From a virus, in IMG/VR virus record IMGVR_UViG_3300009506_000085, positions 1 to 49,073 of that record: a stretch of 49,073 bases of DNA; one strand, written 5' to 3'. This document shows positions 10,836 to 33,444 of this stretch, in pieces. The notes beneath the pieces are model-generated. The model worked only from the letters and a program-made list of their open reading frames with translations, was not told the origin of the DNA and did no database searches. The position numbers and the translations under genes were made by a program. Numbering within the stretch: position 1 is the stretch's first letter; every line of letters starts with the position of its first letter.

Positions 10836-11108
10836 TCATAGCTGTCGGAGCCTATGAGCAAACTGGATCTCACCAGGGCACTGGGACATGCACTTCCAAC
10901 ATACCCCATCAGTCACATCGTACTCTACCATGCCTTCTCCCACCAGCCCAATGTATGTCTCACATGGGTGCCTATGGTAAAGTCTGGTGGGGTCGTCTAT
11001 GCGCCAATCTCCCATGTAGTACCCATCGTCCCCATCTGTCCCGTCAAGGACATAGACCCCGCGCTCCGGGGGCCCGTTGAATCCCTGGTACTTTACTCCC
11101 TTCAACAT
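10836..11108 (-). CDS. W-HxC-CxxC-P-E family member (dispersed)
   Basis: A 90-residue protein from ATG 11,108 (GGAGG four bases upstream). It has GDWRIDD, then LYHRHPC, then CWKCMSQCPGEI near the end. The last motif matches CWKCKQVCPDEI of the tandem-cluster member at 36,917-37,249. The C-terminal L-x-x-W helix is replaced by QFAHRLRQL. A likely divergent member of the phage's repeated small zinc-binding family. Function unknown. Confidence 0.65.
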   Translation of the reverse strand: MLKGVKYQGFNGPPERGVYVLDGTDGDDGYYMGDWRIDDPTRLYHRHPCETYIGLVGEGMVEYDVTDGVCWKCMSQCPGEIQFAHRLRQL

Positions 11109-11128
11109 GGCGCCTCCTGAAAACAAAT

Positions 11129-11173
11129 GCCCCCTCCACTGGTGCCTATGGCGGCGACCGAGCTGGAGGGGGC
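11129..11173 (-). terminator. GC-rich hairpin followed by T-rich tract
   Basis: A perfect 10-bp inverted repeat (11,129-11,138 with 11,164-11,173; GCCCCCTCCA/TGGAGGGGGC). On the minus strand it is followed by ATTTGTTTTC, as in an intrinsic terminator, and then by the Shine-Dalgarno of the gene starting at 11,108. It could terminate or attenuate transcripts coming from the promoter at 11,496-11,524. Confidence 0.55.
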
Positions 11174-11352
11174 TGAGATGTCTCGGTTCCACTCACAGTA
11201 ATACCTGTAAGGAAACCTAGGACCAATGATGATGTTCCTACGGAACAAGGTCATTGACGTTGTCTTTGACTTTTTCATCATCTTCTTTTTCTTCTTCTTC
11301 TTCTTCTACTATTTTACGGTTCAGGTTTGTTCTGGTTCGAGTTTACGGCTTT

Positions 11353-11430
11353 TCAGAGTCCGGCAATGGTATTACCATTCTCAGGGTAAGCTGGTGCCTC
11401 TAGCACGTCTAACCCCTTCAGTGCTCTCAT
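11353..11430 (-). CDS. Possible 25-residue leader peptide
   Basis: ATG 11,430 is preceded by AGGGAGG with five-base spacing and opens 25 codons (MRALKGLDVLEAPAYPENGN...). It is the first reading frame after the promoter at 11,496-11,524. The rest of the 420-base stretch to 11,108 holds a (GAA)n purine run (about 11,280-11,307) and short frames that I cannot support as genes. Confidence 0.35.
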   Translation of the reverse strand: MRALKGLDVLEAPAYPENGNTIAGL

Positions 11431-11495
11431 ATGATCCTCCCTCTGTTGAGGTGTATGTCAGGAGTTTGGTTACCATCCCTCTCTCCCTCTACTAT

Positions 11496-11524
11496 ATTAT
11501 ATGTTTTTTCTCCGAGAATTGCAA
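11496..11524 (-). promoter_or_regulatory. Leftward promoter TTGCAA-17-TATAAT
   Basis: Minus strand: -35 TTGCAA at 11,519-11,524, a 17-base spacer and -10 TATAAT at 11,496-11,501. It lies directly after the helicase stop codon and would drive the small-gene operon to the left. The last part of the spacer (GAGAAAAAACA) resembles the promoter at 39,764-39,792. Confidence 0.75.
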
Positions 11525-11528
11525 GTCC

Positions 11529-12929
11529 CTATGCCCGGCTACCCTTAGCCTGGGCCTCTTTCTGGCGCTGTCGTGGCGTTTTAGCCTTCTTGTCAGCCAC
11601 CTCAGGAACGCTGGTGTCATCGTAAGTCTCCGTTTCATATACGGTATTCGTGATGGACATCTTGCTGAGGTCACATTCTACCACAACAGGGCGAAAAGAT
11701 CGCCGAGAGTGCCTCTGCTTGAGGGATGAGAACTCCATCCCCACCTTGTCGTCCCCAATGTCGTACTGGGTCATGCCGATCACCACGGTCGCCTCTTGCA
11801 GGTGCTTGGTCGATGCCTGTGCCATCTCCAGCCCCATCTTGGCACCCTTCTCCAGTCCGGACCTGTTGGTCTGTGCCGCTGTCCATACCAGAATGTTGTG
11901 CCGCTTGGCGAAGCGGGACAGGTCACGGCTGATAGCACCCAGCCAGTTCCATTCCTTGTCCCTGGCGTACCCAGCATCGCACGGCTTCATCCTCTCCATG
12001 AAGTCGAGGATCAGCACGTCCGGCTTCCACCCAATCAGGTTGACCCACTTCATCATCTCGGCCTCAATGTCGTCCACGCTTACCTCACGGTTGATTTCAG
12101 TCAGCCGGATGCGTTCGTGGAGGTCCGCCCTCCAGTGGCGACCCAGGCCCTTGTACGCAATGCCAGGGTCGTCGATGATCTGGGTGAGGTCAGTGCCTGT
12201 GATGCGGGCCAGCATCCTCTCTGTCTGCTCCTCGATGGTCAGCTCATTGGTGACCACCCACACCCGCTTCTGCTCTAGCTCAGCGATCTTGTGGGCCATC
12301 ACGATGAGGACGCTCGACTTGCCCGCCCCTGTTGGGGCCATCACGATGCCGAGCTGCTTGGTCCGCAAGCCCCCGCCTGTCCAGTCGTCGATCACGTCGA
12401 TCCCTGTAGGGATACGCACCACCTCGGGCATGAACCCGTGGGAGTGGACGAGGTGCTCAACCGCCTGCCTCAGGTCCATCGTCCTGTCGGTGCCTATCTC
12501 ACCGTGCCGATTGAAGAAGGTGTGTAGGGATCGGAGCAGGCTACTACCGTTAAGGTCCGCCTGCTTCATCAGGAATGTCTGATCGTTGGTCAGCTCCTGA
12601 AAGTCCCGCACCACTCCCGTATCCCTGGCCTGTTCCAGGGTGTACATGATGGTGCTCCTGTCCGGTATCGTCTCGGTGATGCTGTCAAGCGCCGCCTTGT
12701 ACCGCAGGTTGTACGCCTCTTCGTCCTTGTCCTTGAACACACGGTGCAGCGTATCTATCGACGGCTGCTCCCCGTGCTTTCTGGTGAATGCATAGAGTTC
12801 AGCCAGGATAGGAATGAACTCAGTGGTGTGCAACCAGTCTGGTTTGAACGTGGTTGCAAACCGTTTTGCATCCTCCGGTCTAGATGACAGGGCGTATAGA
12901 AACACCCTTTCGTCAAAGTTTGTTGCCAT
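11529..12929 (-). CDS. DnaB-like replicative helicase
   Basis: A 466-residue helicase of the DnaB/RecA-fold type. Residues 1-160 form a helical N-terminal domain; the ATPase follows with Walker A APTGAGKSS (198-206) and Walker B VLILDF (D309), then a glutamine/arginine-bearing region (TAAQTNRSGLEKG). It unwinds DNA at the replication fork together with the primase at 5,085-5,933 and the polymerase. GGAGG precedes the ATG. Length and motif order match phage DnaB helicases. Confidence 0.9.
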   Translation of the reverse strand: MATNFDERVFLYALSSRPEDAKRFATTFKPDWLHTTEFIPILAELYAFTRKHGEQPSIDTLHRVFKDKDEEAYNLRYKAALDSITETIPDRSTIMYTLEQARDTGVVRDFQELTNDQTFLMKQADLNGSSLLRSLHTFFNRHGEIGTDRTMDLRQAVEHLVHSHGFMPEVVRIPTGIDVIDDWTGGGLRTKQLGIVMAPTGAGKSSVLIVMAHKIAELEQKRVWVVTNELTIEEQTERMLARITGTDLTQIIDDPGIAYKGLGRHWRADLHERIRLTEINREVSVDDIEAEMMKWVNLIGWKPDVLILDFMERMKPCDAGYARDKEWNWLGAISRDLSRFAKRHNILVWTAAQTNRSGLEKGAKMGLEMAQASTKHLQEATVVIGMTQYDIGDDKVGMEFSSLKQRHSRRSFRPVVVECDLSKMSITNTVYETETYDDTSVPEVADKKAKTPRQRQKEAQAKGSRA

Positions 12930-12944
12930 ATTGCTCCTCCTTTT

Positions 12945-13991
12945 CTAAAACAGATCCGCTGCATACCGCTTCGTCAGAATGATGCAGTGGCTTCGCAGCT
13001 TCTTGAAGTTTATGGTGGGGTCTTTGTGCTTTCGCAGAGCTGTCCACAGTTCTTCCTCGATCACCTCGTGGTACACGGTACCCAGCAGGCGGGGGATCAG
13101 CTTCGCTCGATGCCGCTCCTGCACCCGCTTCTCTCGTTCCCGGCACATGGTGAAGTACAGTGCGTCGTAGTACTGATCTCCATAACTTGGCTCACGCCCT
13201 TCGTTCACGTCCTCGTCCGTTAGCTGAGCCAGGATCTTGGCCCGAGTCTTATCCACCAGGGCCTTGGTGCAGAACTCCTCTGCGATCTCTCCCTCTACCT
13301 GCTTCTCCCCACCCTTCTCGGTGGTACCGAAGGCTCGACGGTTCTCTTCCTTGAAGTCGTTACGTACGATCTTGGCCCACGGCTGCTCATTGAAGCAGTT
13401 GCTCCACTCGTAGTTCTTGATGACGATGCCTTCGCCAACCCCGGCCCCATCCATGATGAGGTATGTGTTCAGCTCAGCCTCACGGTGTAGCTGCTCATGG
13501 CTAGGGGTAGAGAAGATACACAGTGGTTCAATGATGTCCAACCCTGCCGCCTTAATGATGGGCTCATACTCATCGTAGGGCAGGTACTTCTTCTTATCTC
13601 TATCATACACATCGAACACGTAGAACCTGCGCCACGCATCCTCACGGTATGTCTTCAGGGTGTGAGGCACTAGCCACTCACCATAGATAACCCAGTTGTG
13701 ACTACCATTGATGGCCACATCCAACAGTTTCTTGTTGTTCTCCGGGGCGTGGACCCACTGAAAGAACCCAGCGTTATCCTTCTCATCCGACAGTTCTCTA
13801 GTCCGAGAGCCACATTTGACGTTGTGCCCGCTGATAGCATTAGGCCCGTGCCACTCGATACCATCGAACCACACGCTGCCGTTCGTACCATCCAGCTTGG
13901 GGAACACGTACACATTCCCGATCTCTATAGCCTCGACCTTATCGTGACCTAGTCTTTCAACATGGTCGTACTTTCTGAATGACATCATCAT
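12945..13991 (-). CDS. RNA ligase, Rnl2-like nucleotidyltransferase
   Basis: A 348-residue nucleotidyltransferase. Motif I is FPKLDGTNG with the likely AMP-accepting K32; motif III is VIYGEWLVP, motif IV EGIVIKNYE and motif V AKIVRNDFKEE. The ligase core of about 240 residues is followed by a helical C-terminal domain, as in T4 Rnl2-type enzymes that seal nicked or broken RNA, often to counter host anticodon nucleases. Start at ATG 13,991 overlaps the upstream stop (ATGA); two more in-frame ATGs follow at once. Confidence 0.82.
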   Translation of the reverse strand: MMMSFRKYDHVERLGHDKVEAIEIGNVYVFPKLDGTNGSVWFDGIEWHGPNAISGHNVKCGSRTRELSDEKDNAGFFQWVHAPENNKKLLDVAINGSHNWVIYGEWLVPHTLKTYREDAWRRFYVFDVYDRDKKKYLPYDEYEPIIKAAGLDIIEPLCIFSTPSHEQLHREAELNTYLIMDGAGVGEGIVIKNYEWSNCFNEQPWAKIVRNDFKEENRRAFGTTEKGGEKQVEGEIAEEFCTKALVDKTRAKILAQLTDEDVNEGREPSYGDQYYDALYFTMCREREKRVQERHRAKLIPRLLGTVYHEVIEEELWTALRKHKDPTINFKKLRSHCIILTKRYAADLF

Positions 13992-14170
13992 CTCTCCCAC
14001 TGAATAAGTTTCATAAAACCCATAACATATGCAGGTACTTTTGTTTTACAAGATCCACACGTTCCCAAGCAAGAACAATAGTCACACTTATTACACAACA
14101 AGCAGGTATAACATGGCGTACCATCAGAAGAATAGACAGTCCAGTCCTTATCAAGTTGCATGCGGGCCAT
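13988..14170 (-). CDS. W-HxC-CxxC-P family member (dispersed, Cys-rich)
   Basis: A 60-residue protein from ATG 14,170 (AGGAG five bases upstream). It shows LDKDWTVYSS, then a dense Cys cluster (CYTCLLCNKCDYC) and the family ending CGSCKTKVPAYVMGFMKLIQWER, close to LVGFLTLIEWER in the member at 36,672-36,917. Nine Cys residues may bind two zinc ions. It overlaps the RNA ligase start. Function unknown. Confidence 0.7.
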   Translation of the reverse strand: MARMQLDKDWTVYSSDGTPCYTCLLCNKCDYCSCLGTCGSCKTKVPAYVMGFMKLIQWER

Positions 14171-14179
14171 CACAACTCC

Positions 14180-14395
14180 TTAGTTGGTATCTTTCACTTC
14201 ATCAATGAACTCGATGGAGCTAACCCAGCCATCTCCATCAATGTCGTCAATCACCTCTATTACCGTCGAAGACTCAGGTACTTTCGTTAGCAGGTTTATC
14301 AAGCTTTTGGCGCTTATCCCTGCTCTGAATGTGATCTTGTGATTCCTACGAATCAATTTCGTTTCTAGAGTGCACGAGTATCCTAGCTTTGCCAT
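14180..14395 (-). CDS. Small hypothetical protein (71 aa)
   Basis: A 71-residue protein with a Ser/Thr-rich beta-like N-terminal half and the acidic segment EVIDDIDGDGWVSSIEFIDEV. That resembles a small alpha/beta fold used in many phage proteins of unknown role. Its ATG directly follows the end of the DNA ligase gene by one-base overlap. Function unknown. Confidence 0.65.
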   Translation of the reverse strand: MAKLGYSCTLETKLIRRNHKITFRAGISAKSLINLLTKVPESSTVIEVIDDIDGDGWVSSIEFIDEVKDTN

Positions 14396-15417
14396 TACAT
14401 ATCGTCCTTGTGTCTGAACCCGATGAACACCGGGAACCGGGGCTTTGTCAGCGCCCCCGATGGCTGGTGCTTGTACTTCAAGATGGACCCAATGAGCACG
14501 TCCCGGTTCCTCCAGAACTCCTTGCGCTGGGCGTCGGTGTACCCGGTGCCCACCTCGAACTCGATCTTGGTCTTGAGGTCACGGCACACGAACTTCCCCA
14601 GCTTCCCTGTCGGTACCTTCCCGGCCTTGGCACTGGATCGCTCCGTCCTGCCCAGCTTGTTCTTCTTGGCAGGGTTAGCGTTGTGCATCTGCTCGTGGTA
14701 CCCAATGATCTCAGCCTCATCATCTTGGAACAGCTTGAGTTTGCACATCTTTCCACGGGTGGACCGCTTGAACAAGTACCCACCCTCAGGGTCACGGAAG
14801 ATGGCACCTTCATACCCTTCATCTGCACACTTACTCCAGAAGGCCATCAGGCCCCCTGGGTTGTAGCACTCCTGAGGGATCACCAACGTCACCCAAGGTG
14901 GACGAGGCGGGCGCAGCCTGTGCTGCATCAGCACTATGCGCTGGCGGTAGCTCAGGTCCGGCCTGTCCCAGATGTCGAAGACCTTGTACTCAAAGTCAGG
15001 TTCACCTTCTACCCTCATCACCGCACTGGAAACATCACCGAAAGCCTCGGCTCCATTGATCCACAGCTCACCATCCAATCCCTCCATACCCCAGGCTTCT
15101 AGTTGCTCCCGGATGTAGGTGTTGGGGATGTCCTTGAGGCTGCGGGATACTGGCGTCCCGCCCACCGTGGTGAGGCAGCGGATGCCGTCGATCTTGGGTG
15201 TGGCCAGGACAGGGTACTCCACCTTGTCCACACTATGGCAGACCTCGGCCAGCATGGGCTTCATCACGTCCATCAGGTGCTTGGTCCCGTTGTAGTCCTT
15301 CTCCTTCATCAGCTCCTCGTCGAATCCCTTGGGCACGGGGGCAGGGCCAAAGTGTCTCGCAGCCATCCCTGCGTCCTTGCGTGTTTGTCTGTCCTTCGGT
15401 CCTCGTTTACCACTCAC
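14395..15417 (-). CDS. ATP-dependent DNA ligase
   Basis: A 340-residue DNA ligase. Motif I ATPKIDGIR gives the adenylated K75; motif III is LDGELWING, motif IV GYEGAIFRDP and motif V CKLKLF. It seals nicks during replication. The size matches compact phage ligases with an adenylation domain and an OB fold. GTG 15,417 is chosen as start because AAGGAG lies seven bases upstream; the longer ATG/GTG frame to 15,438 includes that site. It overlaps the end of the upstream gene. Confidence 0.9.
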   Translation of the reverse strand: MSGKRGPKDRQTRKDAGMAARHFGPAPVPKGFDEELMKEKDYNGTKHLMDVMKPMLAEVCHSVDKVEYPVLATPKIDGIRCLTTVGGTPVSRSLKDIPNTYIREQLEAWGMEGLDGELWINGAEAFGDVSSAVMRVEGEPDFEYKVFDIWDRPDLSYRQRIVLMQHRLRPPRPPWVTLVIPQECYNPGGLMAFWSKCADEGYEGAIFRDPEGGYLFKRSTRGKMCKLKLFQDDEAEIIGYHEQMHNANPAKKNKLGRTERSSAKAGKVPTGKLGKFVCRDLKTKIEFEVGTGYTDAQRKEFWRNRDVLIGSILKYKHQPSGALTKPRFPVFIGFRHKDDM

Positions 15418-15733
15418 AGAGTTTCTCCTTAACGTCAACTAGGAAGTTCCACAACCTCTCGGCGTACCAGTCTAGCAGATCTATCATCCTAGCATTTTTA
15501 GGGCGCATGCACCTATTATAATGAGAAAGCATCCACCTCTTCTTGTTGAAGAAGTAGCGTCGCTTCGATGTTCCGCTGAGCCCATCGTAGGCCCAGTGAA
15601 ACGGAGGGTGCGTCTTCGACCACTTCTCCATTCCTCTGCGTGTGCAGTCGATCTTGGGTATGGCCATGCGACCGTTCGCCCCGCAGATTGGCCAGAGGGT
15701 CTTCGACCACTTCTTCATTGCTCTGCGTGTCAT
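15407..15733 (-). CDS. Hypothetical protein with internal W-S-K-T repeat
   Basis: A 108-residue basic protein. TRRAMKKWSKT at the start and TRRGMEKWSKT about 27 residues later are copies, reflecting an 81-bp spaced DNA repeat (about 15,618-15,649 and 15,699-15,730). The second half is rich in Arg, Lys and Trp. Its ATG overlaps the methyltransferase stop (ATGA). Family and function unknown. Confidence 0.6.
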   Translation of the reverse strand: MTRRAMKKWSKTLWPICGANGRMAIPKIDCTRRGMEKWSKTHPPFHWAYDGLSGTSKRRYFFNKKRWMLSHYNRCMRPKNARMIDLLDWYAERLWNFLVDVKEKLCEW

Positions 15734-17069: not shown

Positions 17070-17070
17070 C

Positions 17071-18743: not shown

Positions 18744-19438
18744 TCTGATTCTTTCCTTATGATTCGGTACTGCTTGGTCTTCGCCATCTTCTTGACCCGG
18801 TTGGTGATCCGCTTGGTCTGTTCCTCCTCAGAGTACAACCCGTCTGCCAGCTCCTCAAGCATGTCGGGGATGGTGTTCACTCCTTCGATGAGAGTCTCGG
18901 GTTCCTCCGGCTCGGTGTCCACGTCAATCACATACCTCATGCACGTAGCCACGTCGGCCAGCCTGATGTTCAGCCTAGCCTTCAGCCGGTCGATGGTCTT
19001 CCGTCCTTTCTTCTCTAGCACCGCACGGTATAACTCGACGCACACGTCGGCGAAGGAGTCAAGGCCCTGCGTGTCCTCCCTCAACTTGCGGGTGGTGCGG
19101 TAGCCGTGCTTGCACTCAGCACACACAACCACCAAGTTGTCCGGCCTCGCCTCGCCACCCACATCAAGAGGCACATACCACATCAATCGGGCTGAAGTGT
19201 GGCTCTCCCTACCAAGGTAGCTCAGCGCCTTGTTGCAGAAGGCGCAGCGACCCTTGTAGTTCATGAAGCAATCCTCAGCATCAGCCTTAGTGACCTGAGG
19301 TATGGTGCCCCACCGCATGTCGGTGGCTGTTACTGTCCGGTATGATGCTTTGATCTCGGCGTTGATTTCATCTAGGCTCTTGGTCAAGAAGGAGCTGGTC
19401 CGCTTCTGCCTCCGCTTGTTCACCTTAGGTCTACCCAT
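18740..19438 (-). CDS. HNH-like endonuclease with missing first histidine
   Basis: A 232-residue protein with a basic N terminus and an HNH-type zinc module: CAFC, then MWYVPLDVGGEARPDNLVVVC, then CAEC. In HNH nucleases the position before the P..GG segment is DH; here it is WY, so the catalytic His is absent and activity is uncertain. The C-terminal 120 residues are helical and acidic. It may be a free-standing homing-type nuclease or a DNA-binding derivative. The ATG at 19,438 overlaps the upstream gene's end. Confidence 0.7.
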   Translation of the reverse strand: MGRPKVNKRRQKRTSSFLTKSLDEINAEIKASYRTVTATDMRWGTIPQVTKADAEDCFMNYKGRCAFCNKALSYLGRESHTSARLMWYVPLDVGGEARPDNLVVVCAECKHGYRTTRKLREDTQGLDSFADVCVELYRAVLEKKGRKTIDRLKARLNIRLADVATCMRYVIDVDTEPEEPETLIEGVNTIPDMLEELADGLYSEEEQTKRITNRVKKMAKTKQYRIIRKESE

Positions 19439-19859
19439 CGTCATCGTCCTTCCAATGTCCTGATTTGATGGCCTCATCCTTGTTCCGTTCAATGTCAGTT
19501 AGCCTCATTTTGACGTACTTCGGAGACCACGAGGACTGGTCATCCGCTGGTAGCCTCAATCTAGGGATGATGTCCATGTTATGGATCATCCATACAGAGT
19601 GCAGCTCAGGTGGAGCGTCGGCCATACAGAACCAGCACTTGCCCTTGATGCTGTCCTCGGCATCTAAATACCTGACCTCGGATTCTTGGTTGTCGAGTTC
19701 CTCATCCGTAAACTCAAAACGCAGAGCCTCACACTCATGCCATATGAATGACAGCATCATCTCACCTTCGGTAAGTTCCTTCTGTTCTTGACTGACCTCC
19801 TTCTCGTCAACCAACATCCACCCATTCACTTCCATCAGCGGCTTATGTTTCGCTCTCAC
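19431..19859 (-). CDS. W-HxC-CxxC-P-E-HN family member with C-terminal extension
   Basis: A 142-residue protein. LMEVNGWMLVDEKE, then FIWHECE, then CWFCMADAPPELHSVWMIHNMD give all elements of the small zinc-binding family found in the tandem cluster, followed by an extra 40 charged residues (SSWSPKYVKMRL...). A free-standing member within the replication region. Possible zinc ligands are His and Cys of WHEC and the CxxC pair. Function unknown. Confidence 0.75.
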   Translation of the reverse strand: MRAKHKPLMEVNGWMLVDEKEVSQEQKELTEGEMMLSFIWHECEALRFEFTDEELDNQESEVRYLDAEDSIKGKCWFCMADAPPELHSVWMIHNMDIIPRLRLPADDQSSWSPKYVKMRLTDIERNKDEAIKSGHWKDDDDG

Positions 19860-21644: not shown

Positions 21645-22585
21645 CTACTTGCCTTCATTCCTACAAACGGAGACTTTCCGAGAACTTGGTACCATCCATT
21701 GACGGTGAAGCTACGAGGACCCCATTTCTCAGTGACCGTGCCTTTTACGTAGGTTTGGTTGTTTCTAAAGTCGATGACGATTTTTCCTTCACCATCATCT
21801 ACTTCAATATCCTCCCATTTTGACGGTACGTACTTCTTCAGTCGCGTCGTCGCTACATTGTACCTCTGAACCTTCTTTAGATACTCCTTACCTTGGAATG
21901 ACTTTGCAGCGTAAGAATCAAGCTGCAACGGTATAGCCACCGTATCGCCATCAGTATACACTGATCGAACTTTGCAGTCTGTCAGGCTGAATCCGAAGTC
22001 TCCTGGCTTCGGCGGATTCATTAGTATCTCTATGTCTTTTGACGACAGGAATTGAGGTTCAAAGTCAGAGGGCATCCTTTTAAGCAAGAGATCTATTCCT
22101 GTAATCTGGTCCTTCTCTGGTTTGCAAAGAGGAATAGCCAGCGCCACACTTTGTACTCTCCTTGGAACTGAGACAGCCATGTTGTATTTGAATGAATCGA
22201 ACTCTTTGAAGTCAGGGTCATGGCCTATGAGCCATGGTGTTTCACCAACTTCCAGTAGCACATAGTCATCGGTCATGTCAATGATGCCGGACTCCAGTAT
22301 CTTCTCGTCATCCTCCTTCAAGATAGTGTTTGTAACGACAGGCATAGGCTTAGTCAAGTCCTTAAAGACAACTCTCCGAAGAGTTCTAACGTTAGAAGTG
22401 AACAGACAGATACCATGTCCGAAGTTGATGCCAAGAAGCTCACTCCCAGTTGGGCGATGCCGGCGTCTTGTCGCTCTAACAAGTAAAGAACAGTGGTCAC
22501 CGTCCAGCACACGATAACCGGAGTGTTGCTTCTTCCTGCCCAGCTTACCTGCCTTCCATTTGTTGATGAATTCAGCGGTTGTCAT
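21641..22585 (-). CDS. Hypothetical protein (314 aa)
   Basis: A 314-residue protein. It starts with a basic segment and alternates beta-rich stretches with the phrase LLEVGETPWLIGHDPDF. No Walker, HNH, metal-binding or membrane motif is visible. It overlaps the sigma factor start by four bases, so the two may be functionally linked. Family not recognised. Confidence 0.7.
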   Translation of the reverse strand: MTTAEFINKWKAGKLGRKKQHSGYRVLDGDHCSLLVRATRRRHRPTGSELLGINFGHGICLFTSNVRTLRRVVFKDLTKPMPVVTNTILKEDDEKILESGIIDMTDDYVLLEVGETPWLIGHDPDFKEFDSFKYNMAVSVPRRVQSVALAIPLCKPEKDQITGIDLLLKRMPSDFEPQFLSSKDIEILMNPPKPGDFGFSLTDCKVRSVYTDGDTVAIPLQLDSYAAKSFQGKEYLKKVQRYNVATTRLKKYVPSKWEDIEVDDGEGKIVIDFRNNQTYVKGTVTEKWGPRSFTVNGWYQVLGKSPFVGMKASR

Positions 22586-22832
22586 TTGGTTCTCCCATTA
22601 GTACGAACTCAGCATCTTCTGGTTTCTTTAGACCACACGCTCGGCACACGGGCGTCCCTTCTTCCAGTGTGGTTGGATGAAACCACATGCTCAGCTTGGT
22701 GCTTGTGTCCTTATGTTTGATGTTTCCGAACACACCCTTCTCTGTGAACCTGTCGATTACCTCCTCGTTTGTTGGTACTCCCAGGCAGAAATGGGTAACA
22801 TCTCCTTCTTGGTTCTTGAACCATTCAGTCAT
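22572..22832 (-). CDS. Truncated or divergent W-HxC-CxxC-P-E family member
   Basis: An 86-residue protein ending MWFHPTTLEEGTPVCRACGLKKPEDAEFVLMG. CRACGLKKPED matches the family's C-x-x-C-x4-P-E/D motif and MWFH the W/H segment, but the order is compressed and the terminal L-x-x-W is missing. It overlaps the 314-residue gene and abuts a clear family member. Function unknown. Confidence 0.55.
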   Translation of the reverse strand: MTEWFKNQEGDVTHFCLGVPTNEEVIDRFTEKGVFGNIKHKDTSTKLSMWFHPTTLEEGTPVCRACGLKKPEDAEFVLMGEPNDNR

Positions 22833-23074
22833 GCTCGCTCCCTTACCTCCCAGTTGTGCAGAATGTAGAGAGCCTCTATCTCTTCAGGAACGGGGTCTCG
22901 ACAATTACTGCACTTTGGAATGTGGTGTCCTTCTTTGTCGGTGAGATAACACCCACTGTTACATGGTTGATGCAACGGAAGTGATTTCAAATGACTTCCA
23001 ACCCCAGGCCTTGGTGTGACCAGAATCCAGTCATCAATCTCTAGTAGAACGGTCCTTCCTTCATACTTACTCAT
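22829..23074 (-). CDS. W-CxxC-P-E-HNW family member (dispersed)
   Basis: An 81-residue protein: LLEIDDWILVTPRPG, then LPLHQPCNSGC, then CSNCRDPVPEEIEALYILHNWEV at the C terminus. All elements of the tandem-cluster family are present. It overlaps the neighbours on both sides by 4-8 bases, next to a divergent member, so this is a local pair. Function unknown. Confidence 0.75.
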   Translation of the reverse strand: MSKYEGRTVLLEIDDWILVTPRPGVGSHLKSLPLHQPCNSGCYLTDKEGHHIPKCSNCRDPVPEEIEALYILHNWEVRERA

Positions 23075-24588: not shown

Positions 24589-24846
24589 TTACTTCTCCCA
24601 TTCAAGTAGTTTCAAGAACCCTTGCATGGTTTCGGGCGGTGGTTTTTCACATGCCAAGCACACTTTATAAAATACTCCTGTTGGTGTCCATTGTGGTCCT
24701 TCTTGCCATGAAAAAGCACCACGAGGACAGTAATGAATTGGTATGTATTCGGTGTGCATTATGTCAAGTGTAAGAGAACGGTATGTCCTTCGTAGGAGTC
24801 TCCATTCTCCGTCTTCTATTAGCGTACAAGTGCTTCCTATTTCCAT
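24589..24846 (-). CDS. W-HxC-CxxC-P-E-W family member (dispersed)
   Basis: An 85-residue protein: LIEDGEWRLLRRTYR, then PIHYCPRGAF, then CLACEKPPPETMQGFLKLLEWEK. It carries the complete family signature, with the ending closest to the GFLKLL-type members at 36,373-36,672 and 36,672-36,917. Placed between the MoxR-like and VWA-like genes, so it is co-transcribed with that pair. Function unknown. Confidence 0.8.
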   Translation of the reverse strand: MEIGSTCTLIEDGEWRLLRRTYRSLTLDIMHTEYIPIHYCPRGAFSWQEGPQWTPTGVFYKVCLACEKPPPETMQGFLKLLEWEK

Positions 24847-27109: not shown

Positions 27110-27110
27110 G

Positions 27111-27479
27111 TTACACTCCCACATCAGAGAGAAGAATGAAATGAGTCCCTTCCTTAAGGGACTCTGGCATCTTCTCTATTGGTTTCTCACAGTCACACAC
27201 AGGGCGCTCGCTTTCTTTGTAGTCACCTCGTTTGGCACGAACTAAAGTACAAAGGTTATTTGTAGAGCGGCCACACCAATATACTGTGTGTTCTCTCCAC
27301 GTATCATCTTCGATCACCTTCAGTGTAGTTTCCTGAGGTGTCGGACCCTCATGAATCTCACACACCACCACCACTGACCCCGGGCTAAGGCTCAGCCCTT
27401 CAGACAGTACCGATGGAGCGTAGATGTATTGCTTTCCTATCTTTGCTTTCTTCGGTCGTTGGAGCAACGCCAGATTCAT
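27111..27479 (-). CDS. Hypothetical protein, possible distant zinc-family member
   Basis: A 122-residue protein from ATG 27,479 (GGGAG seven bases upstream). It has a W-C pair (VYWCGRST), then CDCEKPIEKMPESLKEGTHFILL near the end. The C-x-C ... P-E-S arrangement recalls the repeated zinc family but lacks its spacing, so membership is uncertain. It is the first gene after the promoter at 27,508-27,536. Function unknown. Confidence 0.6.
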   Translation of the reverse strand: MNLALLQRPKKAKIGKQYIYAPSVLSEGLSLSPGSVVVVCEIHEGPTPQETTLKVIEDDTWREHTVYWCGRSTNNLCTLVRAKRGDYKESERPVCDCEKPIEKMPESLKEGTHFILLSDVGV

Positions 27480-27507
27480 AATGGATCTCCCATCTGCGAC
27501 AGCCACC

Positions 27508-27536
27508 ATCATAGCACACCCGGCGGCGGCTGTCAA
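27508..27536 (-). promoter_or_regulatory. Early leftward promoter TTGACA-17-TATGAT
   Basis: Minus strand: TTGACA at 27,531-27,536, a 17-base GC-rich spacer, TATGAT at 27,508-27,513. The surrounding 47 bp (27,497-27,543) are identical to 29,811-29,857. A 7-bp inverted repeat GACAGCC/GGCTGTC brackets the spacer. It drives the operon containing the MoxR/VWA and sigma factor genes. Confidence 0.8.
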
Positions 27537-27547
27537 GTCGGCCTCCC

Positions 27548-28750: not shown

Positions 28751-28893
28751 AGCAAGGCTAGTAGCGCAGCACCAAGCGCAGGTGATATGCACCAAGCAAC
28801 CACGTGGATCAAGGCATGGAGCACAACGAACACAGCACCCCACTTTAGCATCTTGCTTGCACATGTCTTACACCAATGATGTACGTTACTCAT
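28747..28893 (-). CDS. Small membrane protein (48 aa)
   Basis: A 48-residue protein from ATG 28,893 (AAGGAG seven bases upstream): MSNVHHWCKTCASKML, then a long hydrophobic segment to the end. CKTC with two His residues may bind metal on one side of the membrane. It overlaps both neighbours. Function unknown. Confidence 0.6.
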   Translation of the reverse strand: MSNVHHWCKTCASKMLKWGAVFVVLHALIHVVAWCISPALGAALLALL

Positions 28894-29092
28894 TGTCATG
28901 CTCCTTCTTCATGTCTCTTCGCCTGATGTATTCGAGAGCCTCATACTCAGCGTCGATCTCTTCTTGCAGCTCCTTGATGTAGGACTTGTAGAACTCTTGT
29001 TCCTCTAGGCTGAGTTTGGTTCGGAACTCGGGGTCTTTGGTCAGCTTGACTGTTTGTGTGAGTGCTCTCTTCAGTTGTTCAAGAGTGCCCAT
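28886..29092 (-). CDS. Helical Glu/Lys-rich protein (68 aa)
   Basis: A 68-residue, fully helical, charged protein (LSLEEQEFYKSYIKELQEEIDAEYEAL in two halves), likely a coiled coil. It overlaps the downstream gene by 8 bases and the upstream one by 14. Function unknown. Confidence 0.65.
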   Translation of the reverse strand: MGTLEQLKRALTQTVKLTKDPEFRTKLSLEEQEFYKSYIKELQEEIDAEYEALEYIRRRDMKKEHDNE

Positions 29093-29261
29093 CTTCTACC
29101 CCGATGTTGAGTTTCTTAATCAGCCTATCAACTTCTCGACAATGACCGTGCCCGTTGTCAATGAGCTTCTTCAACTGCGCCTTGTCACCGCGCTTGTCTC
29201 TTGCAGCCTGCCTATCTTCAGCTTCACGGCGACGGCGTTCTCGCTCAGCTCTACCTCTCAT
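29079..29261 (-). CDS. Small Arg-rich protein (60 aa)
   Basis: A 60-residue protein with a strongly basic N-terminal half (RAERERRRREAEDRQAARDKR) and a short helix with one Cys and one His. Nucleic-acid binding is possible. It overlaps its neighbours by 4-14 bases. Confidence 0.6.
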   Translation of the reverse strand: MRGRAERERRRREAEDRQAARDKRGDKAQLKKLIDNGHGHCREVDRLIKKLNIGVEDGHS

Positions 29262-29488
29262 GGCTTTACCTCTTTGTTGTTCACCTTGGCGAGCACACTG
29301 GTGATGTACTCATTACAGTGAGGGTGGTGGTCGTTAATACAAGTGCTGCTCTCAGTCCTGCTATCAAAGCAAGCCTTCACCAGTCGCAGCGCACCGTACA
29401 AGACATCACGCTCTGCCTTTACTTCTTCATGCTCAGCGTAAATGTCTCGTACCAGATCATGCCACTGATCGTTACTCGGGTGTGACAC
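29258..29488 (-). CDS. Small hypothetical protein (76 aa)
   Basis: A 76-residue protein with a helical N-terminal half and a Cys/His-containing middle segment (CINDHHPHCNEY) that could bind a metal ion. It overlaps the lipoprotein-like gene by 17 bases. Function unknown. Confidence 0.6.
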   Translation of the reverse strand: MSHPSNDQWHDLVRDIYAEHEEVKAERDVLYGALRLVKACFDSRTESSTCINDHHPHCNEYITSVLAKVNNKEVKP

Positions 29489-29795
29489 TAAGACCTCCTT
29501 GCACTTTCAGACAGTAGTATCCAGCCTGGTTGGTTCCGAAGTGAAATGTGATTCGATCACCCTCCACCGTGGTTACGGTTAAGGTTGAAGGGGCACCAAA
29601 TCCTTGTCGAAACTCAGGGTCTGCTGTCTCTGAGTCGATGTGGAACACGGGGAGATCTTCGTACCCGGGGTTGCGAGCCTTGCACTCATACACTCCTGGC
29701 TCTATCGTCACCTCACTACCAAGGTTGGCGGTGCAAGCAACGAACACACCCATGATACCAAACAAAACAACCAAGTTCTTTCCAAAGTTAGACAC
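29472..29795 (-). CDS. Putative small lipoprotein
   Basis: A 107-residue protein with an N-terminal signal: basic start, hydrophobic LVVLFGIMGVFVAC with a lipobox-like VFVAC, then a beta-rich exported domain with two further Cys residues. It would be a lipid-anchored periplasmic protein, perhaps in superinfection exclusion or envelope modification, but that is inference. It is the first gene after the promoter at 29,822-29,850. Confidence 0.65.
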   Translation of the reverse strand: MSNFGKNLVVLFGIMGVFVACTANLGSEVTIEPGVYECKARNPGYEDLPVFHIDSETADPEFRQGFGAPSTLTVTTVEGDRITFHFGTNQAGYYCLKVQGGLSVTPE

Positions 29796-29821
29796 AGTAG
29801 TCCTCCCGATCGACAGCCACC

Positions 29822-29850
29822 ATCATAGCACACCCGGCGGCGGCTGTCAA
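29822..29850 (-). promoter_or_regulatory. Early leftward promoter, perfect duplicate of that at 27.5 kb
   Basis: Minus strand: TTGACA at 29,845-29,850, 17-base spacer, TATGAT at 29,822-29,827, within a 47-bp block (29,811-29,857) identical to 27,497-27,543. It precedes the lipoprotein-like gene at 29,795. Confidence 0.8.
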
Positions 29851-29869
29851 GTCGGCCCCTAAAGGCCGG

Positions 29870-30475
29870 TCATTTCTCTTCTCCTTCACACCCACAACTT
29901 GAGCAGAATCCAACTCTGTTGTATGTTGGATCGTGGCACCAACACACTTGTTGTTGGCATCCGTTATTGGTAGCAACTACCTCGTGCAGATTCTCCTTGT
30001 CTTTCAACATCTCGTAATGGCGAAGGGTAGCGTTCCCACCGCCTGTAAAAATGTCACCGTAACGGTCACACATATGGCGAAACTCCGGTCGAGTTATCGC
30101 CGCCACTCTTGCATCCTCCGGCAGCTTGGTGAACAACTGAACGGTCGCTGACTTGGCAAGGAACAAACCAATGGCAGCGGGTTGTCGCAGCCCCCATCGT
30201 ATCAAGGCCAAAGTGTCGTCGATGTTTGGTTCTTTCTCTGTGATCCACCTCTCACACAAGTGGAGTGTCAACATACCAGCCATGCCAGTAATGTCGTCGT
30301 TCATATCAAACACCGGCCCGATCGTTGGATCAGCGATGATGTCCTTTGGATCAAGGACTTGATCGCTAACTTGCCGGTCGACGGGCAGAGGTGTAGCCTG
30401 AGGCGAGGATGGTATGGCAACAACGCCACCCGCTACGCCGATTGCTTTCAAGAAAGTACGCCTATCCATAGACAT
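29870..30475 (-). CDS. Tat-signal protein resembling the MoxR C-terminal region
   Basis: A 201-residue protein. Residues 4-10 read DRRTFLK, followed by the hydrophobic AIGVAGGVVAIP and an A-x-A-like cleavage region (PQATP): a textbook twin-arginine signal. Residues 45-143 align with the C-terminal region of the phage's MoxR ATPase (shared IADP, LLIAK/LFLAK, LP/LS..D.RV.A...PEF..M..R.G). The C terminus is Cys-rich (CQQQVCWCH ... CSSCGC). It seems to be an exported, folded, metal-binding protein. I know of no such phage protein. GGAG precedes the ATG. Confidence 0.7.
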   Translation of the reverse strand: MSMDRRTFLKAIGVAGGVVAIPSSPQATPLPVDRQVSDQVLDPKDIIADPTIGPVFDMNDDITGMAGMLTLHLCERWITEKEPNIDDTLALIRWGLRQPAAIGLFLAKSATVQLFTKLPEDARVAAITRPEFRHMCDRYGDIFTGGGNATLRHYEMLKDKENLHEVVATNNGCQQQVCWCHDPTYNRVGFCSSCGCEGEEK

Positions 30476-30567
30476 AGTTCTCCATTATGGCAAGGGCACA
30501 GACCCAGCCGACGGAAAACGGAGGCGTGGCAAGGGTACTTCCCCTGTCACTGACCGAACCTGTGCAC

Positions 30568-30607
30568 CTTGCTCTTATGGTGCGCCCTCACGCACCATAA
30601 AGGCAAG
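30568..30607 (-). terminator. Strong hairpin, perfect 10-bp stem
   Basis: TTATGGTGCG (30,575-30,584) pairs with CGCACCATAA (30,591-30,600) around a six-base loop, extended by CTTGC/GCAAG outside a 2x2 internal loop. There is no T tract, so it is more likely an mRNA stabiliser or processing site than an intrinsic terminator. It lies between the 38-residue gene and the Tat-signal gene. Confidence 0.5.
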
Positions 30608-30724
30608 CTACCTCTTGGTTCCGAACACGTATCGGAAAAATGACCAGCCAACCAGAGCATAGGCACCATACCTAGCCAAGTCAACCAGCACGTTGGTATT
30701 CTGCACACACTCTGCGATCGTCAT
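30608..30724 (-). CDS. Small membrane-associated protein (38 aa)
   Basis: A 38-residue protein starting MTIAECVQNTNVLVDLARYG and continuing through a hydrophobic, aromatic stretch to FGTKR. GGGTGG precedes the ATG. It fits between the 98-residue gene and a strong hairpin. Function unknown. Confidence 0.5.
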   Translation of the reverse strand: MTIAECVQNTNVLVDLARYGAYALVGWSFFRYVFGTKR

Positions 30725-30725
30725 G

Positions 30726-31022
30726 TTACCACCCCGCCGCCTTACGTCTCCGCTTCAGCTCGTACAACTCAGGCGCAAGGGCCTCTCCCAAGTGCTTGAA
30801 TTGCATACGTTTCTCTGCTTCAATGGTTTGCATCTCACCCCAAGTGCAGCACTCAGAGCACAAGCCACCGCATGTCCAGCATCCACATACCTTGCATCTG
30901 TAAGGGGAGTAGCTCGCTGACTTATCAGGCTCTCGCACCCTGAATCTGAATGCCACCTGAAGGCGGTCAGCTATCCCCCAGATGATGAGGAACAAACAGA
31001 CCCACAGTATGATCGCTTCCAT
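30726..31022 (-). CDS. Membrane-anchored Cys-rich protein (98 aa)
   Basis: A 98-residue protein: N-terminal span IILWVCLFLIIWGIA, then a Cys cluster (CKVCGCWTCGGLCSECC) and a charged helix. The cluster may hold two zinc ions on the cytoplasmic side. Function unknown. Confidence 0.65.
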   Translation of the reverse strand: MEAIILWVCLFLIIWGIADRLQVAFRFRVREPDKSASYSPYRCKVCGCWTCGGLCSECCTWGEMQTIEAEKRMQFKHLGEALAPELYELKRRRKAAGW

Positions 31023-31031
31023 CTTGTTCTC

Positions 31032-31268
31032 CTAACGGGCCAAGTCCTTGACTTCCTTGACCCAAGCAGCCCGCTCTTTCAGCAAGGCGTAGTGCATGTT
31101 GCTGAAGTAGCTGTCGATGGTGTAGATACATTCTATATCTAGGGCATGATCCACGCCCCGCAGCACAGCTACCGCATCCTCAAACGCTGCTCGTCTGTAG
31201 TTTACGGTTTCGTAGGGAATGTTGTAGTACCCTCGTGCTCGCAGTCGTCGCCTACTTGTTCTTCGCAT
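31032..31268 (-). CDS. Small basic helical protein (78 aa)
   Basis: A 78-residue protein with an Arg-rich N terminus (MRRTSRRRLRARGYY) and a helical remainder. It overlaps the HTH protein's end by 17 bases. Nucleic-acid binding is possible. Family unknown. Confidence 0.6.
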   Translation of the reverse strand: MRRTSRRRLRARGYYNIPYETVNYRRAAFEDAVAVLRGVDHALDIECIYTIDSYFSNMHYALLKERAAWVKEVKDLAR

Positions 31269-31413
31269 CGCTCGATTCCTTCTTGCCTCTGTTCAGCGTC
31301 TTGAGCACACGCTCTGTGTCCCCAGGTCTGCCGATCTTCTTAGCTATCTGCTCAGGTGTCAGCCCCTTCGCAGCTAGCTTCTTGATTCGTAGCTCGGTGT
31401 GTGTCGCAGGCAT
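31252..31413 (-). CDS. Small helix-turn-helix protein (53 aa)
   Basis: A 53-residue protein from ATG 31,413 (AAGGAGG four bases upstream). LRIKKLAAKGLTPEQIAKKIGR is a classic helix-turn-helix segment, followed by a basic tail. Probably a DNA-binding regulator. Its first third overlaps the end of the upstream membrane protein gene by 62 bases in another frame. Confidence 0.7.
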   Translation of the reverse strand: MPATHTELRIKKLAAKGLTPEQIAKKIGRPGDTERVLKTLNRGKKESSDAKNK

Positions 31414-31558
31414 GTTGCCTCCTTGGAAAGAAAGCATCAGGATACTTCACCATCATCTCTTGCATGAAAGCCTCTCGCTTCATCTTCTTGCGGTAGATCA
31501 ACCACTCGAAGAAGCAAACGATTGCGGTTCCCAACAAAGCACCCAACAACCAACCCAT
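31352..31558 (-). CDS. Membrane protein (68 aa)
   Basis: A 68-residue protein: MGWLLGALLGTAIVCFFEWLIY span, then a basic tail (RKKMKREAF) and a C-terminal part that overlaps the HTH gene by 62 bases. GGGAG lies six bases upstream and its ATG touches the preceding stop. Function unknown. Confidence 0.55.
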   Translation of the reverse strand: MGWLLGALLGTAIVCFFEWLIYRKKMKREAFMQEMMVKYPDAFFPRRQHACDTHRATNQEASCEGADT

Positions 31559-31752
31559 TACTCACTCCCAACGATCGGGCCAAACACCCGAATCTGCTGC
31601 TTGATCTGGTTGTTCACCTTGTCCAAGCAGCGCAGACAAAGGACGTTGAAGCGTGACCGACACGGCCACACCTTGCACAAACCACAAGTCTCGACTGTCT
31701 TCGTCTCGAACAGCCAGGACTTCTGCTCACTTCTCTTCAAGCTCACACACAT
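31558..31752 (-). CDS. Small zinc-ribbon-like protein (64 aa)
   Basis: A 64-residue basic protein with CGLC (23-26), C31 and CLRC (about 39-42), suggesting a zinc site, followed by an amphipathic tail. First gene after the hairpin at 31,771-31,816. Function unknown. Confidence 0.6.
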   Translation of the reverse strand: MCVSLKRSEQKSWLFETKTVETCGLCKVWPCRSRFNVLCLRCLDKVNNQIKQQIRVFGPIVGSE

Positions 31753-31770
31753 GACACACCTCGGGCTATG

Positions 31771-31816
31771 GGGCGAAGGGCTGAGGCTAGGAGTCAGGTT
31801 CCCCAGCCCCTCGCCC
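31771..31816 (-). terminator. 13-bp intergenic hairpin
   Basis: 31,771-31,783 pairs with 31,804-31,816 over 13 bp. The only mismatch on the plus strand becomes a G-U pair in the minus transcript, which supports selection on RNA. It fills the gap between two leftward genes. No clear T tract; it may be a terminator or a processing site. Confidence 0.5.
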
Positions 31817-31823
31817 TTTCCCG

Positions 31824-31991
31824 CTAAAGCACGGCCACTGATCTCTGGTATCTGTTCAGATAATCCAAGACCTCTTCGTCAGTGGTGTAGTAGTGGTCGC
31901 CTTGAGGCAAGGCGTTGCCGAGGATCTGCCCAAACCTCAGGCTCGGGTGCTCGGCGTGTATCTCCTTGATCTTGTTGAGGATTTCATCCAT
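31824..31991 (-). CDS. Small conserved phage-type protein (55 aa)
   Basis: A 55-residue protein from ATG 31,991 (GGAG seven bases upstream): helix, then FGQILGNALPQGDHYYTTDEEVLDYL. This R-x-G-Q-x-L-x-N pattern occurs in small proteins of several phages with no known function. It overlaps the upstream gene by 8 bases. Confidence 0.65.
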   Translation of the reverse strand: MDEILNKIKEIHAEHPSLRFGQILGNALPQGDHYYTTDEEVLDYLNRYQRSVAVL

Positions 31992-32220
31992 CGAGATTCT
32001 CCTCGTTGTAGTGCAGCAGGGTACCGTTCGGGTAGCCGTAGCCCTCGATCACAGTCTCGTGCTCGGTGAACCACCGCACCAAGTCCTCGACCTTTCCATC
32101 CACATACAAGGACACAGTATCCCTGAGAAGATCGAAGGTCTTGACTCTCTTGACCCTGAAGCCACGCTCCACGGCACACTTCACCGCAAACTGCGGCTTG
32201 CCCTTGACCAGAATGAACAT
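31984..32220 (-). CDS. Small hypothetical protein (78 aa)
   Basis: A 78-residue protein from ATG 32,220, starting MFILVKGKPQFAVKCAVERG. It alternates strands and helices (KTFDLLRDTVSLYVDG, DLVRWFTEHETVIEG) in a compact alpha/beta pattern. GAGGTG lies upstream. Function unknown. Confidence 0.65.
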   Translation of the reverse strand: MFILVKGKPQFAVKCAVERGFRVKRVKTFDLLRDTVSLYVDGKVEDLVRWFTEHETVIEGYGYPNGTLLHYNEENLDG

Positions 32221-32221
32221 C

Positions 32222-32413
32222 TCACACCTCAGTCCAGAGCCCCATGTAGTCAAGCTGCTTGACCAGCGTGGACTCGTCGGACATGATGAGCTTCAGCCTT
32301 GCCCACTCCTTGTGAGCATGGGTCCGCTCGGTTTTGGTTGCGTTCCGGTGGCACCTGAAGCACAAGCCAGTCTCGCCTTGTGCCTTGTACTTCCCGCACT
32401 TCAAGCATTCCAT
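32222..32413 (-). CDS. Small zinc-ribbon protein (63 aa)
   Basis: A 63-residue protein from ATG 32,413 (GGAG six bases upstream). MECLKCGKYKAQGETGLCFRCH carries two CxxC pairs spaced like a typical zinc ribbon; a charged helix follows. Function unknown. Confidence 0.7.
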   Translation of the reverse strand: MECLKCGKYKAQGETGLCFRCHRNATKTERTHAHKEWARLKLIMSDESTLVKQLDYMGLWTEV

Positions 32414-32423
32414 CGCTTGCTCC

Positions 32424-32675
32424 TTACTCCAGGCAGGATTGACCGAGCTTGGTTTCCAAGTCCTCGAATTTGTTGTCGAATTTTGTCTCGACGACAGTGA
32501 GATCGCTCTGGATGTTGTCGAGAGCAAACTGATTCTCCACGTCCAAGGTCGAGATGTCGTTCTCGCAATCTCGGAGGTCGGTTTCCAACTCCTTGATCCT
32601 TGCCTCCAGTCCGTTGATCCTCAGCGATGCGAAGAGACAGAAGGCACCTACTGCTACGATGAAAACATACAGCAT
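32424..32675 (-). CDS. Membrane-anchored coiled-coil protein
   Basis: An 83-residue protein from ATG 32,675 (AAGGAG seven bases upstream): a short span LYVFIVAVGAFCLFASL, then a continuous heptad-rich helix (LEARIKELETDLRDCEN...). Inner-membrane spanins have this shape, but the gene is far from the endolysin and in the early region, so this is only a resemblance. Confidence 0.6.
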   Translation of the reverse strand: MLYVFIVAVGAFCLFASLRINGLEARIKELETDLRDCENDISTLDVENQFALDNIQSDLTVVETKFDNKFEDLETKLGQSCLE

Positions 32676-32706
32676 TTCATGACTCCTTTCAGGTCTATGG
32701 CACCAT

Positions 32707-32798
32707 GCCATAGCCTCATAACCTAGAGGCCCCGACGCAAGGGAACGGCGGCGCCCGTTTACTACAAGTTGCAGCCCTCTAGGCTATGAGGCTATGGC
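32707..32798 (-). other. 23-bp hairpin just 3' of the tRNA
   Basis: 32,707-32,729 pairs with 32,776-32,798 over 23 bp, with one G-U pair in the minus transcript and a 46-base loop. It begins two bases after the tRNA CCA end, so it probably terminates the transcript or guides RNase cutting of the tRNA precursor. Short GGGCTATG/CATAGCC elements recur in hairpins at 31.8 and 33.8 kb. Confidence 0.7.
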
Positions 32799-32800
32799 GC

Positions 32801-32876
32801 TGGTAGGCCACCTAGGAATTGAACCTAGCCGCTGAAGTTTATAAGACTTCGCCGCTCAACCAGAGACGTGTGGCCC
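32801..32876 (-). tRNA. tRNA-Ile (anticodon UAU)
   Basis: A 76-nt tRNA on the minus strand with encoded CCA. Acceptor GGGCCAC/GTGGCCT (first pair G-U), anticodon arm GAAGT-CTTATAA-ACTTC giving anticodon UAU (AUA codons, Ile), variable loop AGCGG, T arm CTAGG-TTCAATT-CCTAG, discriminator A. The D arm (GTCTCTGGTTGAGCGG) keeps the GG but pairs poorly. This would supply a tRNA for rare AUA codons, or replace a host tRNA cut during defence. Confidence 0.85.
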
Positions 32877-32881
32877 CAGCA

Positions 32882-33232
32882 CTAGCGAATCAGCTTGGCT
32901 CGCTTCTCCTCAGCAAACTGACGGAGCCTCGGGCTGAATCTGTCACGTGCAATCACTCGATCCAGAAACGCAAGCCGAGACTTGACCGCGTAAGCATCGT
33001 CCTCGTCGAGGTCGTGGTTCAACTTGAGGGTGCGCTCGATCTTCCCCTTCTCTCGCTCCCGCTTCTCGATCAGGTGGGTGTGGATCCTAGCCAATGCTCG
33101 CCACATTCCGCCAAGCTCCCGCCCTTCTCGATCCTCGTTCAAGATCATTTCGTAAACGTCGTCCAGCCTGGCCTCGCAAGTCTCGATGACCGCACGAGAG
33201 TAAGCCAGTCCTGCCCTATTTCTGTTTCTCAT
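32882..33232 (-). CDS. Helical charged protein (116 aa)
   Basis: A 116-residue protein from ATG 33,232 (GGGAGAG upstream), almost entirely helical with repeated Arg/Glu/Lys and no Cys-pair motif. Its ATG overlaps the upstream family gene's stop. Possibly a coiled-coil or DNA-binding protein. Family unknown. Confidence 0.65.
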   Translation of the reverse strand: MRNRNRAGLAYSRAVIETCEARLDDVYEMILNEDREGRELGGMWRALARIHTHLIEKREREKGKIERTLKLNHDLDEDDAYAVKSRLAFLDRVIARDRFSPRLRQFAEEKRAKLIR

Positions 33233-33444
33233 CACACTCTCCCTTCGTACAAGATCAGTAGTGCCTGGATCTCTTCGGGGACACGTTCCCCACAAGCGAT
33301 ACAGGAAGCGGGGTTCTCGGTGGTAAGCCAAGCGATCCTGGTTACACTTTTGCAGAGCGAATGTGTGGCGAAGGTAATACGCCCAATGCCAGGGTCGTTT
33401 ACTTCTTTGATAAACCAGGACCCTAGTCTAAACAGTATCTTCAT
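33232..33444 (-). CDS. HxC-like CxxC-P-E family member (dispersed)
   Basis: A 70-residue protein from ATG 33,444 (GGGAGG three bases upstream): FRLGSWFIKEVND, then FATHSLCKS, then CIACGERVPEEIQALLILYEGRV. It shares the W, H/C and CxxC-x4-P-E elements with the tandem cluster; the terminal tryptophan is replaced by Tyr/Glu-Gly. Function unknown. Confidence 0.75.
   Translation of the reverse strand: MKILFRLGSWFIKEVNDPGIGRITFATHSLCKSVTRIAWLTTENPASCIACGERVPEEIQALLILYEGRV

Follow-up and report, generated by a model that had tools for sequence, protein, structure and literature searches.

Copies of a small, fast-changing gene family in a tandem cluster and between replication genes of an uncultured virus

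The window analysed here is the whole of a linear virus record of 49,073 bases (IMG/VR record IMGVR_UViG_3300009506_000085) from an uncultured virus, the recognised relatives of which are bacteriophages. One small gene family that changes quickly is present in about 17 copies, 11 of them in a tandem cluster and six as scattered single genes. Comparison with related contigs, labelled G001 to G030, showed that most of the scattered copies have long occupied their sites and are passed on there, subject to local duplication and loss. A sequence-only reading had listed seven single copies and a doubtful eighth, and had proposed that single copies move within the genome or that neighbouring genes recruited them as regulators or adaptors.

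Members of the family in the window

The 934 stop-to-stop open reading frames (ORFs) of the window were searched with a profile of the 11 cluster copies alone (cluster-only profile) and with a profile of 121 copies from which the window was left out (other-phage profile). These independent profiles recovered six of the listed single genes, which supports the view that single and clustered copies are one family. The E values with the cluster-only and other-phage profiles were 2e-11 and 2e-14 for the gene at 24,589, 2e-11 and 1e-10 at 19,431, 3e-10 and 2e-9 at 22,829, 6e-7 and 1e-9 at 33,232, 8e-5 and 0.001 at 13,988, and 0.003 and 4e-9 at 10,836; the best E value with reversed proteins as a control was 0.08. 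All six were thus detectable by profiles built without the copy in question, and the genes at 22,572 and 27,111 failed. The motif H.C-x(8,60)-C..C-x(3,5)-P had 14 occurrences on the minus strand and none on the plus strand; codon-block shuffles contained zero to three.

The six singles all lie on the minus strand. The copy at 10,836-11,108 (MLKGVKY...HRHP...CWKC...CPGEI) follows the gene of a gp41/DnaB-like helicase, which served as the anchor gene (11,529-12,929, minus strand; Pfam DnaB_C, 6e-14), and has same-gap orthologues in G001, G004, G005 and G006 at 40-51% identity. The copy at 13,988-14,173, between the DNA ligase and RNA ligase genes, is degenerate, its first ligand H being replaced by N. 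The copy at 19,431-19,859 has a C-terminal extension and lies upstream of an HNH-like gene; its G001 orthologue (49%) occupies the same gap. The start of the copy at 22,829-23,074 overlaps the stop of a VWA gene, and this copy lies between that gene and the gene at 22,572. The copy at 24,589-24,846 lies between the MoxR-like and VWA genes, and that at 33,232-33,444 lies downstream of the cluster, with post-cluster copies of G003 and G019 as its best matches. The names MoxR and HNH come from the sequence-only reading; neither was backed by a Pfam match.

The remaining listed single, at 22,572-22,832 (minus strand), appears to be a doubtful distant relative rather than a full member. It is a conserved gene with a profile E value of about 0.1, which is at noise level; its orthologues in six relatives (G001, G002, G003, G017, G019 and G021) share a THFC/THYC motif and CxxC and do not share the C-terminal part. 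The gene at 27,111-27,479 (minus strand), which had been flagged as doubtful, is a conserved gene of its own kind and not a member, since it scored below 4 bits in all orthologues.

The tandem cluster extends over 35,110-38,580 on the minus strand, with profile E values down to 1e-32 and start-to-stop overlaps in most of its genes. Its 11 copies are at 35,110-35,436, 35,402-35,698, 35,691-36,008, 36,017-36,376, 36,373-36,684, 36,672-36,917, 36,917-37,285, 37,282-37,545, 37,533-37,862, 37,859-38,305 (start uncertain) and 38,311-38,580. Two minus-strand genes at the cluster head were absent from the earlier list: a divergent member at 39,088-39,450, which is conserved with G003 (57%) and G019 and was found by the other-phage profile (9e-6), and a cysteine-rich weak relative at 38,867-39,208 (start uncertain; profile 1e-3; 48% to G003). 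Directly after the cluster lie about 470 bases without a long ORF (34,640-35,110), in which a G-run is present; an Rfam search of this region returned nothing.

Inheritance, gain and loss in relatives

Among named phages, the replicative helicase has only remote relatives, all below 60% identity, most of which are likewise annotated as replicative helicases, in large tailed phages; the close relatives are uncultured virus contigs only. A nucleotide match to the window region was absent among 50,697 phage records. A more distant relative (in G023) is the phage-like 119,592-base contig L107 (JAJFLM010000335.1), whose helicase and terminase are 54% and 51% identical to those of the window. It was found in a Deltaproteobacteria metagenome-assembled genome, which is a hint at the host group, though the binning is uncertain.

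Copy positions were obtained by profile searches over 18 records, namely the window and 17 related contigs, two of which overlap others. In each record the copies were on one strand only, which was the replication-gene strand except in the remote G009. The best match of a copy in another genome lay in the same gap or in the cluster in 108 of 135 cases, as compared with a mean of 21.7 and a maximum of 36 when site labels were permuted within genomes. The 119-kb relatives G003 and G019 shared 24 reciprocal best pairs with five order inversions out of 276, which is nearly collinear. These results, therefore, indicate that copies are inherited at their sites, with local duplication and loss, and that relocation inside a genome is not what chiefly shapes their distribution. 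A self-mobile gene that homes or transposes would be expected to have copies at non-homologous sites when close relatives are compared, and this was not the pattern observed. The best paralogue within a genome tended to lie in the same gap or cluster, as local duplication predicts, and this preference was above chance in G003 (p 0.01), G006 (p 0.02) and G019 (0 of 1000).

In a tree of the copies, the starred, well-supported clades were mostly same-gap sets. The label changed between cluster and scattered 12 times as compared with about 35 with shuffled labels, and the tree did not separate the two kinds of copies, which were interleaved. Since the tree was built from 70 columns and left the majority of its forks unresolved, only the site statistics and the starred clades were used. 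The interleaving, together with the gain and loss described below, leaves standing the finding that the clustered family also occurs as scattered singles, though not the mechanism proposed for it. The two pairings of particular copies fared differently. That of the 10.8 kb and 36.9 kb copies by CWKC was coincidental, as the 10.8 kb copy was closest to its same-site orthologues (37-56%). The 36.4 kb copy was indeed the best match of the 24.6 kb copy inside the window, but at 32% identity against 51% for the same-site orthologue over the domain.

The filled sites differed among relatives, and the number of copies per gap between core genes ranged from 0 to 4. The gap between the MoxR-like and VWA genes held one copy in the window, G001 and G003, two in G002 and three in G019; in G021, VWA directly follows MoxR. 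Between VWA and the 22,572 gene there was one copy in the window and G003, two in G019, three in G002, and none in G001, G017 and G021. The gap from c19856 to the HNH-like gene held one copy in the window, G002, G003 and G019, two in G001, and none in G017 and G021, and that from the HNH-like gene to the helicase gene uvsW (see below) held none in the window and G001, one in G003, two in G002, G017 and G021, and three in G019. Between the RNA ligase and helicase genes, no copy was found in the window, one in G001 and two each in G004 and G005, and G006 has four copies upstream of the helicase gene, at the contig start. The gap between the two ligase genes was filled in the window and empty in G001, G004 and G005. 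After the helicase gene (helicase to c9729), one copy was present nearly everywhere, with two in G014 and none in G017 and G018, which overlap each other. Empty sites could be seamless: the ATGAGT at the end of VWA starts the 22,572 orthologue in G001, and the same ATGAGT starts the 22,829 copy in the window.

The cluster site was spanned by three records, all of which carried the cluster (11 copies in the window, 14 in G003 and 12 in G019), and in all three it lies directly after the two head genes and points away from the terminase block. In the contig from the metagenome-assembled genome, weak family-like ORFs follow one another in tandem at 69.1-70.7 kb; with DUF932 at 54.7 kb on one side and terminase at 87.3 kb on the other, this is the same relative place. 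Few of the window's cluster copies had clear counterparts in the G003 or G019 clusters; therefore, the clusters turned over between lineages. A few weak copies were present in the more distant G009, G010, G025 and G026. Helicase relatives below about 34% identity had no copies in the stretches read, and this absence is not firm as the records are partial.

Reciprocal best copies were 35-86% identical, and the median identity of core proteins was 64-87%. The median nonsynonymous-to-synonymous ratio (pN/pS; G003-G019 pair not included) was 0.46-0.60 for the copies versus 0.28-0.39 for core genes. The copies are thus real proteins, constrained but fast-evolving.

Domain anatomy, predicted fold and surrounding sequence

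The domain comprises about 70 amino acids, with an N-terminal W, a CxxC-x4-P motif and a hypervariable remainder. Across 139 copies, the conserved columns were L1, W7 (82%, otherwise mostly F), H25 (97%), position 27 (81% C, 15% H), C50 (99%), C53 (100%), P58 (88%) and hydrophobic positions in the C-terminal helix; the entropy of most remaining columns was near 4 bits. All four ligands (H-x-C/H ... C-x-x-C) were present in 130 of the 139, as HCCC in 109 and HHCC in 21. This set is a plausible mononuclear zinc site, and judging from these residues the family very probably binds zinc.

AlphaFold2 with family alignments gave, for the 24,589 copy, a model with a predicted local distance difference test score (pLDDT) of 91.2 and a predicted template modelling score (pTM) of 0.77, in which the predicted order is E-E-E-E-H, i.e. 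a beta4-alpha fold; the pLDDT of the 38,311 model was 79. Foldseek returned nothing with E < 0.001 for the 24,589 model, and neither did Foldseek and BFVD for the 38,311 model. In VIA, the top two rows for the 24,589 model were phage T5 PC4 (4bg7, Z 4.5, 2.9 Å over 47) and AcrIIA22 (7jta, Z 4.2, 2.1 Å over 48), and Pur-alpha was also listed (3nm7, Z 3.5). These PC4-like rows all had Z < 5, aligned the sheet only and were tied with unrelated lipocalin and Nudix rows. PC4-like proteins have a beta-beta-beta-beta-alpha topology, and the anti-CRISPR AcrIIA22 is counted among them (PMC8545432); the predicted topology of the 24,589 copy matches this description, which we treat as a lead. The window family shares with 4bg7 and 7jta the predicted order and the small size of phage proteins, and these were its best, though weak, structural rows. 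It differs in its zinc ligands, in the sheet-only alignment, in dozens of paralogues per genome and in that sequence similarity was not found. HIT proteins, the best VIA row for the 38,311 model, reached only Z 2.8, which was taken as meaningless.

Searches of Pfam, PHROGs, NCBIfam and PADLOC, the last of which contains defence proteins and not inhibitors, gave no family match above a curated cut-off or convincingly strong. DUF6980 (PF22400) was rejected as parent family: it weakly matched one member around the CxxC-x4-P part (E 0.02), at best with 16.4 bits against the Pfam gathering cut-off of 27 bits. Membership of the DksA/TraR zinc fingers was rejected as well, as zf-dskA_traR matched three of 71 members below the cut-off (best E 0.04). 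A search of PDB sequences with the family profile gave the aIF2-beta zinc ribbon as its best match (E 0.3). These small zinc-ribbon proteins have a four-ligand zinc site with CxxC like that of the window family, but match it at sub-threshold level only. A tblastn search with one cluster copy gave no match, no part of alignment A1 was sufficiently conserved to scan a collection with, and a literature search for described paralogous zinc families in phages found nothing relevant.

Lineage-specific families of small accessory genes in large phages are a known kind. In large, T4-like phages, such accessory small-gene regions are called hyperplastic regions. The window resembles these in having small variable genes between conserved replication genes, but differs in that the filling is largely one homologous domain and in its conserved cluster. 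Judged by the libraries searched, the domain, its extent and its gap-by-gap inheritance appear new.

Promoter-like elements were observed upstream of the cluster and elsewhere. An inverted repeat at 39,760-39,832, with 33-nt arms (82%), separates the terminase side from the cluster side, upstream of the cluster head and cluster, and contains a symmetric divergent pair of promoter-like sites (TTGCAA-17-TATAAT), one on each strand. A 47-nt sequence at 27,497-27,543, with TTGACA-17-TATGAT on the minus strand, is repeated exactly at 29,811-29,857 and with 62% identity at 34,443-34,489; its letters suggest that it is likely a repeated operon promoter.

Elsewhere, the window encodes a single polypeptide with a uracil-DNA glycosylase domain ahead of a family A DNA polymerase (UDG-PolA fusion; 487-3,042), an AAA protein, RNA and DNA ligases, a ResIII-type helicase (here called UvsW), a remote sigma-like protein, MoxR- and VWA-like genes, DUF932, terminase and a GP88-like protein, for which a scan did not find relatives. 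A sulfotransferase-like gene beside terminase (46,500-47,177; Sulfotransfer_2, 2.5e-19) was unmatched in G003. The ORF at 29,870-30,475 starts with MSMDRRTFLKAIGVAGGVVAI, which is Tat-signal-like, followed by a part resembling the MoxR-like protein of G001 (31%).

Possible roles of the copies

The best explanation, which we hold tentatively and at just short of an even chance, is that small phage proteins of the early phase have expanded into a family specific to this lineage and would serve as interchangeable scaffolds against host targets. Each copy would be a stand-alone domain of about 70 amino acids with a short antiparallel beta sheet that one probable zinc ion closes, a C-terminal helix after it and a hypervariable exterior. 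Local duplications within the operon would be the main source of copies, which can be lost again or else stay in place in the cluster and the replication-gene gaps. They would be expressed early together with the replication operon and, as binding scaffolds, would act on host targets in host takeover or counter-defence. Of these elements, the family with its ligand residues, the positions, vertical descent with gain and loss, and the constraint on the sequences are shown here; the fold is a prediction, and zinc, early expression and host targets are inferred. We favour this effector reading because it accords with the small size of the proteins, the turnover of copies and the fixed core with a variable exterior, and with the early expression that we presume. 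Several points weigh against it. Only the small size and variability of the proteins, the turnover in copy number and the place in the operon point to host targets, and the fold says little about function because the Foldseek and VIA matches are weak (best Z 4.5). The preference for same-gap paralogues was not significant in the window itself (p 0.08). Furthermore, the 10.8 kb subfamily is retained after the helicase gene nearly always, which is more like a dedicated role; this copy, present in all but one lineage, could be dedicated.

The location of the copies among replication genes would also suit zinc-stabilised PC4-like proteins that bind single-stranded nucleic acid in phage replication, recombination or transcription, with several paralogues in parallel. 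The predicted strand order and the T5 PC4, AcrIIA22 and Pur-alpha rows agree with this, but the low Z values, the sheet-only alignment, the ties with lipocalin and Nudix, the lack of Foldseek hits with E < 0.001 and the lack, W aside, of a conserved surface of basic or aromatic residues speak against it, and we regard it as unlikely. Regulation of phage or host transcription by DksA/TraR-like or RNA-polymerase-binding zinc proteins was hinted at by zf-dskA_traR (E 0.04) and PHROG 54, DksA-like (0.005). Such hits came from only two to three of 71 members and were all of the weak kind that CxxC proteins in general may produce, and the predicted fold is mainly beta sheet versus the helical hairpin of DksA; the chance of this explanation is slim.

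The proposal that each copy was recruited by its neighbour as an adaptor or regulator draws on gaps that hold a copy in almost every relative, most notably the one behind the gp41-like helicase gene, and on site-specific subfamilies in the tree. It was weakened by the same neighbours being copy-free in close relatives, with seamless junctions between VWA and 22,572 (G001, G017 and G021) and between MoxR and VWA (G021) and no copy between c19856 and the HNH-like gene in G017 and G021. The copies also evolve much faster than their neighbours, and recruitment now seems doubtful, although a little less so than the transcription-regulator explanation. As for selfish single genes moving within the genome, presence and absence do differ at many sites, and the 13,988 copy occurs in the window only. 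The same-gap best matches, same-gap clades and collinear pairs speak against such movement, as do the single strand of all copies and the lack of nuclease or recombinase family matches in these proteins of 60-140 amino acids, so that it is very improbable.

A more far-reaching form of the effector reading, which we consider unlikely as a whole, is that a new zinc-stabilised beta4-alpha domain, possibly PC4-like, is present in about 30 copies per genome in a group of uncultured phages, and that the one conserved cluster and the singles specific to particular sites together serve as a permanent stock of diversified effectors directed at host functions. Most small accessory phage genes are orphans, which makes their evolution difficult to follow. 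In the present case, a single recognisable domain accounts for up to 7-11% of a phage sequence, and its copies can be traced from gap to gap across relatives whose core proteins are 40-93% identical, so that it becomes possible to measure how presumed effectors are gained, lost and diversified. The approximately 130 natural variants are a ready set for function screens.

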